Below are positions 134 to 5,346 of a stretch of DNA of 5,346 nucleotides, in pieces; the first letter of the stretch is position 1; the number at the start of each line of letters is the position of its first letter. Position numbers and translations under genes: made by a program. The DNA is taken from the NCBI GenBank assembly GCA_013867245.1, contig JACENB010000054.1:1-5346 (forward strand). Direction: 5' to 3'. The notes under the pieces were generated by a model, which saw only the letters and a program-made list of their open reading frames with translations, was not told where the DNA came from and searched no databases. This stretch comes from Nitrosopumilaceae archaeon. Lineage in GTDB: Archaea > Thermoproteota > Nitrososphaeria > Nitrososphaerales > Nitrosopumilaceae.

Positions 134-1429
134 ATGGCTGAACTACATCGTCACATGGGACTTTTTCATCTTACTATGTATGGTGTGGGATTAATTCTAG
201 GTGCAGGAATCTACGTCCTAATTGGTGAAGCTGCAGGGTTTGCTGGAAATTCAATGTGGATATCATTTTTACTAGGTGGAGTAGTTGCTATGTTTGCTGG
301 ATTAAGTTATGCAGAACTTTCTGCACTATATCCAAAAGCTGCTGCAGAATATACTTTTGTAAAAAATGCTTTCAAGAATAGATTTTTTGGATTTATTATA
401 GGATGGCTCACTGCAATTACATCGATAATTGTTGCAGCTACAGTTGCTTTAGGATTTGGTGGTTATCTAACTCAGTTCATAGAACTGCCTATTACAATTG
501 GAGCAATAATTCTAATTGTAATTTTATCAGTTGTGAATTTTATTGGAATTAAAGAATCAGCATGGGCAAATACTATTTTTGCATTGGTTACTGCTGCAGG
601 ACTTGTTCTAATCATTTTTCTTGGGTTTTCAATGGAACCAGTTGAAACAATTGATTATTTTGAGGCACCAAGTGGTATTACAGGCATAATTCTTGCATTT
701 GTTTTGATTTTCTTTGCATTTATTGGGTTTGAGGATATGGCAAATGTTGCTGAAGAAGTAAAAAGACCAAAGAAAACAATTCCAAGAGCAATTATTTTGT
801 CGGTAGTAATTACCGGGATAATTTACATTCTAGTTTCTCTAGCAGCAATTAGAATTCTAAATTGGGAGGATTTAGCAGCATCTTCTGCTCCTTTAGCTGA
901 TGTAGCTCATTCAGCAATTGGTATGAATGGAAGTATTACACTATCCCTTATCGCACTTTTTGCTACAGCAAGTACTGTGCTAATTACACTAGTTGCTGGG
1001 GCCAGAATTCTATACGGAATGGCAAAAAGTGGAACTCTGCCTGAGTTTTTAGGTAGGGTACATCCTAAGACAAAAACACCTTGGATTGCAGTAATTGGAA
1101 TTTTAGTTACTTCCATTGCATTTGCTTTTGTAGGAGATATTGTAATAATTGCAAATATTGTGGTTTTTGCTGTAGTAATTACATTTGCAGCAATTAATTT
1201 AGCAGTAATTGTTCTCAGATATACTGAACCTGTTTTAGAAAGGCCATTCAGAGTTCCAGTGAATATTGGAAAATTTCCAATTTTGCCATTGTTTGGGTTT
1301 GGAACAACTGCTTACATGGCATTACAATTTGAGATAGAAATAGTTCTTGTAGGACTAGCAATTATTGCAATTGGAGCTGTTTTGTATTTATTTTTGAGAA
1401 GAAGAAAAGATTTTATGAATTCTGATTAG
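134..1429 (+). CDS. APC-superfamily amino acid/polyamine permease
   Basis: A 431-residue integral membrane protein, predicted to carry an amino acid or related amine across the cytoplasmic membrane by proton or ion symport or exchange. About 12 hydrophobic segments can be drawn, at roughly 10-34, 41-63, 84-108, 120-138, 145-165, 182-206, 220-240, 268-290, 317-335, 337-360, 384-400 and 401-421. Family signatures are the broken helix 1 (GVGLILGAGIY, 17-27), whose backbone binds the substrate amino and carboxyl groups in this fold; helix 6 and its loop (GFEDMANVAEEVKRPKKTIP, 198-217); and RILYGMAKSGTLPEFLGRVH (291-310). The length is slightly below the common 450-500. The C-terminus is a short basic cytosolic tail. 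The ATG at 134 gives a suitable lead into helix 1; a second Met at residue 8 (base 155) is possible but less likely. No Shine-Dalgarno site is visible, and translation may rely on the upstream gene 12 bp away. Closest in style to the cationic amino acid/APA groups, but the substrate cannot be read from sequence. Confidence 0.92.
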   Translation: MAELHRHMGLFHLTMYGVGLILGAGIYVLIGEAAGFAGNSMWISFLLGGVVAMFAGLSYAELSALYPKAAAEYTFVKNAFKNRFFGFIIGWLTAITSIIVAATVALGFGGYLTQFIELPITIGAIILIVILSVVNFIGIKESAWANTIFALVTAAGLVLIIFLGFSMEPVETIDYFEAPSGITGIILAFVLIFFAFIGFEDMANVAEEVKRPKKTIPRAIILSVVITGIIYILVSLAAIRILNWEDLAASSAPLADVAHSAIGMNGSITLSLIALFATASTVLITLVAGARILYGMAKSGTLPEFLGRVHPKTKTPWIAVIGILVTSIAFAFVGDIVIIANIVVFAVVITFAAINLAVIVLRYTEPVLERPFRVPVNIGKFPILPLFGFGTTAYMALQFEIEIVLVGLAIIAIGAVLYLFLRRRKDFMNSD

Positions 1430-2151: not shown

Positions 2152-3597
2152 TTATGCATCAGCATACATTGAAACTTCCCAAGCTGTAGGAGTTTGGGCA
2201 AATGCAACATATTCTTTGTATTTTAATTCAGAATAAACATCAAGAAAATCTTTGGTGAAAATTTCTTCAAGGAATTTTGAATCAGATGCCAAGGAATCAA
2301 GGGCACCTTTTAGTGATACAGGTAATGAACCAATTCTATATTCTCTTTTCTTTTCTGTAGAAAGTTTGTAGACATTTTCTTCAATTGGATCTCCCGGATC
2401 AATTTTATTTTTTATTCCATCCAAGCCTGCAAGTAATAACGCAGCCTCTAAAAGATAGATATTTGCAGTAGGATCAGGAACTCTATATTCAAGTCGTTTA
2501 CTTTTTTCTTGATTTCTATTATACATTGGAACTCGTATTGCAGCAGATCTATTTGCCAATCCCCAACAAACATTGACAGGTGCTTCAAAACCTGGAACAA
2601 GTCGTTTATACGAATTGGTGGTTGGATTTGAAATAGCACATAATGCTGATGCATGACTCATAATTCCTCCAATATAGTATCGTCCAGTTTGACTCATTTG
2701 TGCAAGTTCATCATTTTCATCATACATTGCATTTGAATTTTCATTCCACAAGCTTTGATGAGTATGCATTGCAGATGCATTATCGCCAAAAATTGGTTTT
2801 GGCATAAATGTTGCAACTTTATTTTTTCGTTTAGCCTTAACTTTAACTAAATTTTTTACTCCAATTACATTGTCAGCCATTTGTATCATTTCATCATATA
2901 CAAGGTTAATTTCACATTGACCAGAAGTTGCTACTTCATGATGTTCAGCTTCAATTCTAATTCCAAAGTAATTGTATAAATCATCACAAACATCTTTTCT
3001 AAATCCTTCAAGCGTGTCTTTGGGTTGAGATGGATAGTATCCTTCTTTGATATCAATTGCAGTACTTACATTTCCTTTAGCCCATGGAGATTCTTTAGAT
3101 TCAATGGAATAACCTGAACCGCCATACGAATGTGTTGCTGCATAGGGAGATGGATAAACATTGATGGTATCAAATACAAAAAATTCTATTTCAGGTCCCC
3201 AATTTGTATGAGTAAATCCAAATTCGGCTAGTTTCTTTGATGCTTTATGTGCAATACTTCTCGAATCTCTATTGTATCTTGAACTCTCATCTGTGCTACC
3301 ATCATACAAATCACAAAATATTCTAGCATTCTTCCTATGCCCTGGATCATAGTCGGGTGGAAGAATTTTAAATGAATTTGGATCAGGCATTAAAATCATA
3401 TCAGAATTATTTACAGATTTAAAACCAACAATTGAACTTGCATCTAATTTCTCAAGACCGTTAACAAAACTACTATTATCAATTGCATAACTTGGCATTC
3501 CAACATTATGTAATTCTCCAAAAATATCTACAAACCAAAAATCAATGAATGCAATCTTTTCATCTTGTATTTTTTGGAGTACCTGTTCTACGTTCAC
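2152..3597 (-). CDS. glnA: Glutamine synthetase, type I
   Basis: 481 residues; makes glutamine from glutamate, ammonia and ATP in the cytosol, the main ammonium assimilation step with glutamate synthase or dehydrogenase. The N-terminal beta-grasp domain carries LDASSIVGF (51-59) and SDMILMPDP (65-73), supplying Asp52 and Asp66 (E. coli Asp50, Asp64) to the neighbouring subunit. Metal ligands are Glu136 and Glu138 (WGPEIEFF), Glu221 (HHEVATSGQ), Glu229, His278 and Glu370. Substrate and phosphate contacts are Arg332, flap Glu338 (LVPGFEAP), Arg350, Arg355 and Arg372. Length and the segment between about 157 and 186 resemble the GSI-beta branch. Tyr410 matches the adenylylated Tyr397, but the following sequence is KLSTEK rather than DLPPEE, so adenylylation is unlikely. 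Odd points are DGSS to DASS (Ala53) and GSGMH to ASAMH (Ala274, Ala276). The start is GTG; an in-frame TGA lies four codons upstream. The KamA-like gene is 72 bp upstream on the same strand. Confidence 0.96.
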   Translation of the reverse strand: MNVEQVLQKIQDEKIAFIDFWFVDIFGELHNVGMPSYAIDNSSFVNGLEKLDASSIVGFKSVNNSDMILMPDPNSFKILPPDYDPGHRKNARIFCDLYDGSTDESSRYNRDSRSIAHKASKKLAEFGFTHTNWGPEIEFFVFDTINVYPSPYAATHSYGGSGYSIESKESPWAKGNVSTAIDIKEGYYPSQPKDTLEGFRKDVCDDLYNYFGIRIEAEHHEVATSGQCEINLVYDEMIQMADNVIGVKNLVKVKAKRKNKVATFMPKPIFGDNASAMHTHQSLWNENSNAMYDENDELAQMSQTGRYYIGGIMSHASALCAISNPTTNSYKRLVPGFEAPVNVCWGLANRSAAIRVPMYNRNQEKSKRLEYRVPDPTANIYLLEAALLLAGLDGIKNKIDPGDPIEENVYKLSTEKKREYRIGSLPVSLKGALDSLASDSKFLEEIFTKDFLDVYSELKYKEYVAFAQTPTAWEVSMYADA

Positions 3598-3669: not shown

Positions 3670-5034
3670 TTAGGCTTCAGGATAATCATCATTTGGATGA
3701 GATTTTTTGAAATTGTTCATCTCATCTTCAAAAAAGAATTTATCAGTTAGTGCTGGTTTAAGATCATCTAACCAGATTGCATTTTCATCATATTTTGCAA
3801 AGAATGGCACTTGCACCCAGTCAGGGTTTCTACCCTGTAAAAATCTCAGAACAATTACTTTTTGATCACTTAGTTGCGCAGTTCCTATAACATGCACTTT
3901 TCCAGGGGTTGCAGACATACTAGGTCCACGTACAGTTCGTGCTAATCCACTTACCGAAGAATATGCTTTTCTAAAGATTTCATATGCTCTGACTAAAGGC
4001 ACGCCAAAGTAATGTTGTGCGCCCGTATCTCTTACAACAAACATGTAGTAAGGAATACAACCAAGTTGAACCTGTTTTGTCCACATTTTTGCCCACATTT
4101 CTGCATCATCATTGATATGAGCTAAAATGGGTGATTGGGTTCTAATCTGAGCACCAGTTTTTCTTATTTCTTTAATTGCAGATTTTACAGCATCAGTTGA
4201 TAATTCATTTAGATGATTAAAGTGAGCCATAAATGCAAGATGTAATCCGTTGTCAGAAATCTTTTTGAAAACTTCCAGCATTTCTTGAGAATCTGAATCA
4301 GTCAAAAATTTGTAAGGCCAATAAGAAAGAGCCTTTGTTCCAATTCTGATAGTTTTGAGATTTGGTAATTTTGCTTCAAGTAATGCATCAACATATTTTG
4401 AAAACATTTTAGCTTTCATGATCATTGGATCACCGCCAGTGAAAAGAACATCAGTAATTTCAGGATGTTCTGAAACATATTGGACAAGTTGTTCTCCTTC
4501 CTGCATTGCAAATTTCATTTCATCCATTCCTACAAACTGTGGCCATCTAAAACAAAAACTACAATATGCATGACATGTCTGGCTTTGACTAGGGAAGAAT
4601 AGACAGGTTTCTTTGTATTTATGTTGCATTCCATACAATTTTGTACCATCTTTTAGGGATGGAACATTCAATTCCATTTGACCAGCAGGATGAGGATTAA
4701 GTTGTAAACGAATTTCATTTGCAACGTTTGCTATTTCCTTTTTATCAGAAGTATTTTTTAGAGTATTTTCCATTTTTGCATAATGTTCTGGTTTTAACAT
4801 TCCTTTCTGAGGGAATGTAAGAACATACATTGGATCAATTGGGATATTATTCCAATCAATTAATTGTTCAACAACATAGTTGTTTGCTTTAAATGGTAAA
4901 ACATTTCCCACAACTTCCATTTCAAATTGTTTTTCTTCAGAAATATTCTGAATCTGTGGAAGATCACGAAAATTTGATAGTGTATATGATTTTAGTGAAG
5001 GAGAATCACCCCAAACTGATTCTACATAGGTCAT
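3670..5034 (-). CDS. KamA-family radical SAM aminomutase homologue (lysine 2,3-aminomutase-like; substrate probably not lysine)
   Basis: 454 residues; a cytosolic radical SAM/PLP protein of the family that shifts an amino group from carbon 2 to carbon 3 of an amino acid. The 4Fe-4S/SAM motif is CHAYCSFC (Cys154, Cys158, Cys161), followed by Arg163, matching lysine mutase Arg134 that binds the substrate carboxylate. HKY (138-140) precedes it. FTGGDP (198-203) is the SAM-binding GGDP strand; AHFNHLNE (270-277), RTQSPILAHIND (298-309) and PYYMF (328-332) match the mutase barrel. PGK (377-379) places Lys379 at the PLP lysine (Lys337). Lysine mutase Asp293 and Asp330, which grip the side-chain amine, align with Arg335 and Ser372. 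The known enzyme's zinc cysteines are absent, and the N-terminus is about 29 residues longer. FCFRWPQFVG marks a distinct subfamily of unknown substrate. A TAA codon directly precedes the ATG, fixing the start. Glutamine synthetase follows 72 bp downstream. Confidence 0.9.
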   Translation of the reverse strand: MTYVESVWGDSPSLKSYTLSNFRDLPQIQNISEEKQFEMEVVGNVLPFKANNYVVEQLIDWNNIPIDPMYVLTFPQKGMLKPEHYAKMENTLKNTSDKKEIANVANEIRLQLNPHPAGQMELNVPSLKDGTKLYGMQHKYKETCLFFPSQSQTCHAYCSFCFRWPQFVGMDEMKFAMQEGEQLVQYVSEHPEITDVLFTGGDPMIMKAKMFSKYVDALLEAKLPNLKTIRIGTKALSYWPYKFLTDSDSQEMLEVFKKISDNGLHLAFMAHFNHLNELSTDAVKSAIKEIRKTGAQIRTQSPILAHINDDAEMWAKMWTKQVQLGCIPYYMFVVRDTGAQHYFGVPLVRAYEIFRKAYSSVSGLARTVRGPSMSATPGKVHVIGTAQLSDQKVIVLRFLQGRNPDWVQVPFFAKYDENAIWLDDLKPALTDKFFFEDEMNNFKKSHPNDDYPEA

Positions 5035-5051
5035 TTAGTAAATAGTATGTT

Positions 5052-5069
5052 TACCCTTGTTAAAGGTTA
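5052..5069 (-). promoter_or_regulatory. Imperfect inverted repeat at the expected promoter of the aminomutase gene
   Basis: TACCCTT (5052-5058), GTTA, AAGGTTA (5063-5069): 6 of 7 positions pair. Its centre is about 26 bp before the ATG at 5034, where a TATA box for a leaderless transcript would lie; the minus strand here reads CTTTAACAA, a weak TATA-like element. It could be an operator or chance. TTAGTAA, an arm of the repeat upstream of glutamine synthetase, also occurs once right before this start codon (5035-5041). Confidence 0.25.
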
Positions 5070-5095
5070 CAGGCTCAACACGCACAAAATTTTTC

Positions 5096-5103
5096 TATAA
5101 ATA
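5096..5103 (+). promoter_or_regulatory. TATA box (TATAAATA) in the divergent intergenic region
   Basis: TATAAATA is a good archaeal TATA element. On the plus strand it would start transcription near 5120-5130, leaving a leader of about 40 bases before the ATG at 5166. The complement (TATTTATA) could instead serve the minus-strand aminomutase gene with a leader of similar length. The plus-strand reading is preferred because no better box precedes 5166. The rest of the 131-bp spacer shows no tRNA or other gene. Confidence 0.45.
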
Positions 5104-5165
5104 ATGATAAGATGCCTTAACGTTTGTATTCTAGGACGCGGATTGTAGTAAGATAGTGATTAGTT

Positions 5166-5346
5166 ATGGCTGAAGAAGAATTATCTCAAATTTCAGTAGG
5201 AGAATTTGAAACTGTTTCACAGATCCTGGCATCCTCTGAATCACTTCAATTTGCATTTATGGTAATGATAGTGGGAATTATTGGGATTGTAATTGGATAT
5301 AGAAAATTTTCATTTTGGGTGGGTTCTCAAAAATTCTACTATAAGA
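5166..5346 (+). CDS. N-terminal part of an unrecognised membrane protein, partial
   Basis: An ATG at 5166 opens a frame that runs to the window edge (60 codons and one base). The first 27 residues are acidic and polar (MAEEELSQISVGEFETVSQI at 1-20). A hydrophobic helix follows at about 29-44 (FAFMVMIVGIIGIVIG), then a basic and aromatic stretch (YRKFSFWVGSQKFYYK). There is no cleavable signal peptide; the acidic N-terminus and basic residues after the helix suggest an N-out, C-in orientation. An in-frame TGA lies two codons before the ATG, so the start is fixed. No Shine-Dalgarno site is visible, and TATAAATA at 5096 is the likely promoter. I do not recognise the family from this much; a multi-helix channel or transporter is possible, as more helices may follow outside the window. 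Confidence 0.75.
   Translation, partial: MAEEELSQISVGEFETVSQILASSESLQFAFMVMIVGIIGIVIGYRKFSFWVGSQKFYYK

Follow-up and report, generated by a model that had tools for sequence, protein, structure and literature searches.

A DNA window of 5,346 nucleotides from a Nitrosopumilaceae archaeon (the whole stretch analyzed here, contig JACENB010000054.1 of assembly GCA_013867245.1) carries an open reading frame (ORF) for a KamA-like enzyme of the radical S-adenosylmethionine (SAM), pyridoxal phosphate (PLP) type. This protein is likely a glutamate 2,3-aminomutase that belongs to a KamA subfamily of its own and would supply ammonia-oxidizing archaea (AOA) with beta-glutamate as their main compatible solute. 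The residues for the iron-sulfur cluster, PLP and the substrate carboxylate are present, both aspartates that bind lysine are lost, an arginine (Arg335) is invariant, and the predicted fold is that of KamA. Osmotic gene neighborhoods, the distribution of the gene and the co-occurrence of gene and metabolite in one species are also observed. From these we infer the substrate, the product, the role of Arg335 and an osmotic role.

Substrate residues and family placement

The closest database relatives of the KamA-like protein show 82–91% identity among the best 120 matches listed (about 8,000 candidates scored), and the organisms named there are Nitrosopumilus or Nitrosopumilaceae. These relatives are publicly annotated as lysine 2,3-aminomutase (LAM). 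The top NCBIfam model is the KamA family (TIGR00238) with 132.8 bits, which is below its cut-off of 199.2. Scores also fall below the cut-offs for AblA (TIGR03820, 110 bits, equivalog cut-off 525.4), EpmB (TIGR03821, EF-P beta-lysylation, 103.3 bits, cut-off 369.3), arginine 2,3-aminomutase (TIGR04468, 96.5 bits, cut-off 600) and the glutamate 2,3-aminomutase family Eam (TIGR04368, 87 bits, equivalog cut-off 650). EpmB and arginine 2,3-aminomutase are ruled out as identities by scores so far below the cut-offs. The sole solved structure matched by sequence is LAM of Clostridium subterminale (2a5h, E-value 7e-20, from phmmer), and the predicted structure displays the LAM fold at an identity to LAM of about 20%.

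In LAM, Asp293 and Asp330 bind the epsilon-amine of lysine. The segment from PYY (positions 328–330) to PGK (positions 377–379) aligns with 2a5h free of gaps, and this places Asp293 on Arg335 and Asp330 on Ser372. A sequence-only reading of the window had arrived at the same pairs from the equal spacing of these motifs; the small local indel near GAQH which it invoked is not needed. The cysteines, the carboxylate arginine and the PLP lysine that it listed are present in the ORF and throughout the family (Table 1). Arg163 is the equivalent of LAM Arg134, which is taken here to be the alpha-carboxylate contact.

The alignment of homologues proposed in that reading was made with 358 family rows (the window protein and its relatives among genomic, plasmid and protein-database sequences, termed here the window family) and 21 further rows. 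Arg335 played no part in the selection of the family rows, and their number overstates the independent lineages, with many close copies and some cases of one gene fetched twice (e.g. L012/L146). Arg335 is found in all 358 rows and the residue at position 372 is never acidic (D/E). Chance is excluded for the loss of Asp293 and Asp330 because Arg335 is conserved without exception. The neighboring Asp336 is variable (350 D, 5 N, 2 E and 1 P). The most distant family row is from Rhizobium (L007, 32–33% identity), and a Sinorhizobium row outside of the 358 (L196, 31% identity) likewise has Arg at the 335 place. A very diverged Mesorhizobium relative (L191:5644-7074, 27% identity) shows Arg/Ser at the two substrate places and adjoins ferredoxin and aminotransferase genes.

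All nine LAM-type rows, as well as 2a5h, have Asp at both substrate places. The sequence that scores above the Eam cut-off (L158, 716 bits; the only one, from one of 247 genomes searched in one phylum) has Lys and Asn there, which agrees with what the sequence-only reading had stated for glutamate 2,3-aminomutase. Two near-Eam rows (L159 and L160, 632 and 608 bits, both below the cut-off) have Lys and Thr. Among the LAM and Eam rows displayed, Arg is absent at the 369 place and is present at the 366 place in one LAM-type row only (L089). BlsG (L188, annotated as arginine 2,3-aminomutase) is of the KamA type but has Asp at the Asp293 place and Thr at the Asp330 place. The KamA relative L131 has Glu/Ala at these places, unlike the LAM, Eam and BlsG comparators. 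A lysine-type KamA (Asp/Asp) on a Klebsiella plasmid (L190:1869-4618) adjoins a class I tRNA-ligase-like gene.

The window protein has in common with LAM (KamA/AblA, 2a5h) the fold, the CxxxCxxC motif, the carboxylate Arg, the PLP Lys and a GGD motif, but it differs in Arg for Asp293, in Ser/Val for Asp330 in its family, in the low overall identity and AblA score, and in short insertions on either side of the cysteine motif, where the sequence reads FCFRWPQFVG. The window family resembles Eam in the basic residue at the Asp293 place, the non-acid residue at the Asp330 place and the predicted reaction; it differs in Arg rather than Lys, in Ser/Val rather than Asn and in its separate clade. Membership in Eam is ruled out by score, residues and tree. 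The KamA-like protein is predicted, with good confidence, to function like Eam yet falls outside the Eam family.

In a quick tree of 63 rows the AOA copies form one clade (support 99) and the window family forms its own clade (support 98). The three Eam rows form another (support 99) that is placed among classical KamA; the program warns of long branches, which leaves the precise position uncertain. On this topology a basic residue would have arisen at the Asp293 place at least two times, as Lys in Eam and as Arg in the window family. The AOA clade appears among bacterial copies, which would suit a single gain from bacteria.

The proposed mechanism follows LAM chemistry. SAM on the [4Fe-4S] cluster would give the 5′-deoxyadenosyl radical, which would abstract a C3 hydrogen of glutamate attached to the PLP on Lys379, and the amino group would shift from C2 to C3. 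The alpha-carboxylate would be held by Arg163 and the gamma-carboxylate by Arg335, to which Arg366 and Arg369 may contribute. Aspartate is set aside as a substrate by reasoning, as a C2 to C3 amino shift regenerates aspartate.

Distribution and beta-glutamate in AOA

A draw of 250 genomes from the phylum of genome G002 shows some KamA-like match in 68 and a strong match (at least 65% identity) in 32. Archaeal AmoA is found in 39 of the 250, including all 32 strong carriers; the KamA-like gene is present in 32 of 39 AOA and in none of the 211 other genomes. Each AOA carrier has one KamA match, with no second KamA protein seen. The seven AOA that lack the gene may include incomplete genomes, and Fisher values computed for these set comparisons take no account of shared ancestry. 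Of 296 genomes in the phylum of G010 (a Marinifilum), 32, with G010 included, have a full-length copy of at least 51% identity, and two further genomes have broken or partial copies.

Nitrosopumilus maritimus SCM1 (G120) encodes a 448 amino acid (aa) copy that is 90.3% identical over 445 residues and has Arg at position 335. It is the only KamA match in that genome, which also carries a 481 aa second glutamine synthetase (GS2) with the motif NASAMH and a divergent MscS gene. The accessible part of a metabolite report gives 730 mM beta-glutamic acid in SCM1, the top identified metabolite, and describes beta-glutamate as more abundant at depth than at the surface (PMC8269262). A named enzyme for AOA beta-glutamate was not found in open PMC papers. 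The sequence-only reading suggested that a basic residue at this place would match a substrate with an acidic side chain, for example glutamate. This suggestion receives strong indirect support, above all because SCM1 combines beta-glutamic acid with a sole KamA match; the invariant Arg335, the lack of AblB above cut-off in 39 AOA genomes and the osmotic context also support it.

Mannosylglycerate synthase is found in 3 of 39 AOA, all without the KamA-like gene. A strong ectoine synthase match (greater than 190 bits) is found in 5 of 39, all with the gene; this count omits partial matches, which pass the cut-off in 5 other AOA genomes (about 27–29 bits) and are weaker in 13. Of the 32 carriers, 27 have neither mannosylglycerate synthase nor a strong ectoine synthase. 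The accessible text of PMC7554672 describes that the mannosylglycerate pathway was lost in an ancestor of mostly marine lineages and that MscS channels were gained; the word aminomutase is absent from its main text.

Gene neighborhood and relatives

The locus set consists of the best 80 of 591 relatives (34 AOA and 46 bacterial) and leans to close relatives. Features of the window are given in Table 1.

Table 1. Positions of the features in the 5,346 nucleotide window, with residue counts from the 358 family rows.
Feature	Position	Strand	Basis
KamA-like radical SAM/PLP enzyme, 454 aa; predicted glutamate 2,3-aminomutase	3670..5034	-	profile, alignment, predicted fold
CxxxCxxC motif (C154, C158, C161), [4Fe-4S] cluster	4552..4575	-	each 358/358
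Arg163, equivalent of LAM Arg134	4546..4548	-	alignment to 2a5h; 358/358
Arg335 at LAM Asp293 place; proposed side-chain carboxylate contact	4030..4032	-	358/358
Arg366, conserved basic residue, Asp330 loop	3937..3939	-	R 357/358, K 1
Arg369, conserved basic residue, Asp330 loop	3928..3930	-	R 351/358, K 7
Ser372 at LAM Asp330 place	3919..3921	-	S 231, V 119, I 3, A 3, C 2 of 358
Lys379, equivalent of PLP lysine Lys337	3898..3900	-	358/358
GS2, 72 bases downstream of KamA-like gene; candidate beta-glutamate amidating enzyme	2152..3597	-	profile, alignment
NASAMH motif of GS2, replacing xGSGMH of other AOA glutamine synthetase	2764..2781	-	alignment
Intergenic stretch common to divergent KamA-like and MscS genes	5035..5165	.	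ORF positions
5′ end of divergent MscS-type mechanosensitive channel gene, cut by window end	5166..5345	+	AOA-neighbor-family profile, E 6e-26
APC-type amino acid permease; place in system not established	134..1429	+	profile match

The 60 aa fragment at the window end (ORF at 5166) gave no Pfam match and was placed by the family profile instead; a full-length member of this AOA neighbor family displays Pfam MS_channel domains. The MscS-type gene adjoins the KamA-like gene divergently in 27 of the 34 AOA loci (L008–L041). It is two ORFs off on the same strand in L022, three ORFs off in L027 and five in L041. The neighbor family is absent from L029, L038, L039 and L040, the last of which begins 103 bases before the gene, and L038 and L039 have a different MscS-like gene within three ORFs of the KamA-like gene. 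The adjacent channel would release the solute on hypo-osmotic shock.

AOA have two glutamine synthetase clades. The GS2 clade (at least 57% identity to the window sequence) is found in 26 of 39 AOA genomes, one broken copy (G086) included, and is confined to carriers of the KamA-like gene (26 of 32, compared with none of the seven non-carriers). In 17 of 34 AOA loci, GS2 follows the KamA-like gene at a distance of no more than three ORFs downstream (L014 and L034 end at the gene); it is not always adjacent (e.g. G114, G150 and G174). NASAMH is present in all 39 GS2 rows aligned (at least 56% identity, some being one gene fetched twice) and xGSGMH in 11 rows of the other clade. This loop is presumably at the amino group of glutamate, as in bacterial glutamine synthetases, and we infer only that its change fits a substrate with a shifted amino group. 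GS2 may amidate part of the beta-glutamate product. A model for this is the Methanohalophilus portucalensis glutamine synthetase that makes beta-glutamine (PMC1224877); the two are likened by description, and NASAMH is known here from AOA loci only. GS2 is in pieces in L010 and has a stop or is broken in G086, so that it is dispensable in some strains or the assemblies are faulty. GS2 is not needed for the first step, because of the pieces in L010 and the six carriers without it.

The 46 bacterial loci come from many phyla, and some record titles hint at marine or saline settings. The next gene in L058 encodes glucosylglycerol-phosphate synthase, with a score of 745 bits against a cut-off of 569. 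Sucrose-phosphate synthase is encoded in L049 (691 bits against a cut-off of 576), along with a pair of MscS-like genes and a homologue of a K+/H+ antiporter that scores 79 bits, under its cut-off of 309; L061 has the same sucrose sequence clusters. A weak MscS-like match is three ORFs off in L048. A ClC channel gene is directly downstream in L055, with a member of the same sequence cluster in L075. Pfam tallies of the bacterial neighbors (214/238 ORFs, first 25 families per tally) show no partner common to most loci. The neighbor that recurs most often next to the KamA-like gene encodes a class I/II aminotransferase; it occurs in 6 of the 46 loci, always from one sequence cluster (L048, L053, L057, L060, L068 and L078).

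Two rhizobial plasmids encode shorter relatives with Arg at the Asp293 place, one near an ectoine synthase gene (L007:7752-8894) and one near ectB (L196:7788-8879, 31% identity). Both are also near genes annotated as biotin-carboxylase family.

Plasmid-borne family members show 43–52% identity. On a Streptomyces plasmid (L193:1-25242) the member is in a type I polyketide synthase (PKS) cluster, together with a PLP aminotransferase, an AMP-binding enzyme and a proline iminopeptidase-type hydrolase. The hydrolase and AMP-binding enzyme within a type I PKS cluster presumably follow the pattern of beta-amino-acid macrolactam clusters, and L193 is a candidate cluster of this kind. Other Streptomyces plasmid members are near nonribosomal peptide synthetase (NRPS) or adenylation-domain genes and type III PKS genes. 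A Rhodococcus plasmid member (L006:8925-15578) is found with genes for a cupin, an FMN monooxygenase, an N-monooxygenase and a tRNA-ligase-like protein, which we take to resemble nitrogen-nitrogen bond clusters. The Nocardia, Amycolatopsis and Mycetohabitans loci display no clear natural-product cluster around the family member; an NRPS gene is some kilobases away in Mycetohabitans. IdnL4 of the macrolactam incednine is a predicted radical SAM glutamate 2,3-aminomutase whose involvement was confirmed by disruption, according to the accessible part of PMC11284099. It has the same predicted reaction as the window family, to which it is likened by description, and would lend independent support to the glutamate reading if it belongs to that family; its sequence was not found, nor its name among the 120 matches listed (about 8,000 candidates scored).

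Alternative readings and significance

Several points weigh against a glutamate 2,3-aminomutase that serves osmotic adaptation. The predicted model has a low-confidence loop at positions 162–173. Salt water is not the only setting of the gene, which is also carried by one Nitrosotalea genome (L036) and by metagenome-assembled genomes from Centralia (L037 and L038, presumably from soil). An osmotic partner is missing from most of the 46 bacterial neighborhoods, and the AOA gene neighbors may be inherited synteny. The family may use more than one substrate, since its actinobacterial members lie in natural-product clusters. IdnL4, which may lie outside this family, was inactive in vitro (PMC11284099, accessible part). 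SCM1 has a strong ectoine synthase match too; an ectoine synthase is reported for N. maritimus in the accessible part of PMC3043068. The beta-glutamate report, as far as it is accessible, covers one AOA species, and the accessible text on N. adriaticus CCS1 describes trehalose and an amino acid pool dominated by glutamic acid and leaves beta-glutamate unmentioned (PMC11428151). In methanogens, a glutamate aminomutase was excluded by NMR as the origin of beta-glutamate (PMC1224877).

An unlikely alternative is that the substrate is glutamine or a peptide- or carrier-bound glutamate derivative, giving beta-glutamine or a natural-product building block. The linked GS2 and the natural-product neighbors on the Streptomyces and Rhodococcus plasmids are in its favor, but Arg335 fits a carboxylate better than an amide, no neighbor of NRPS size is seen within six places of the gene in the 34 AOA loci (the ORFs shown there are at most about 620 aa), and the compound found is free beta-glutamate in the accessible part of PMC8269262.

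It is quite improbable that another enzyme makes AOA beta-glutamate from ammonia and glutaconate or its CoA ester, with the KamA-like protein unrelated. Such a glutaconate route was proposed for the methanogens in which NMR opposed an aminomutase (PMC1224877). However, a search for HGD-D found none in 39 AOA genomes, with E. coli and M. jannaschii controls positive, and the methanogen-type route via HGD-D is rejected for AOA; the only KamA protein matched in SCM1 carries the substitution that glutamate would call for.

A true LAM, in which another acid such as Asp336 binds the epsilon-amine and the product is beta-lysine or N-acetyl-beta-lysine, is the least probable: it has for it the public names of relatives, an AblA similarity that is weak yet slightly above that to Eam, and the mostly conserved Asp336, but it has to account for the lost aspartates with Arg335 invariant, an AblA score far below cut-off, AblB, the partner of AblA in osmolyte use, above cut-off in none of 39 AOA genomes (one weak partial match; controls 3 of 14 above cut-off) and beta-glutamate as top identified metabolite (PMC8269262, accessible part). 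Lysine specificity is rejected on the substrate-place residues and the lack of AblB, and the view in the sequence-only reading that a LAM label would be wrong finds indirect support in Arg335 and AblB.

Read as a glutamate 2,3-aminomutase, the protein offers a single candidate gene, a single pocket residue and a linked set of genes for beta-glutamate synthesis, all open to direct test. A broader proposal, which is speculative and may well not hold, is that a second, independently evolved glutamate 2,3-aminomutase with Arg in place of Lys was gained once by AOA from bacteria, replaced mannosylglycerate as the compatible-solute pathway during the move into the sea and, with the co-inherited GS2 (NASAMH), would form a two-step path to beta-glutamate and beta-glutamine, which would make AOA a major biological source of beta-glutamate in the dark ocean. 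A widespread family labeled lysine 2,3-aminomutase is probably mislabeled. Relabeling would put right the osmolytes predicted for archaea and bacteria and help to direct studies of natural products that contain beta-amino acids.
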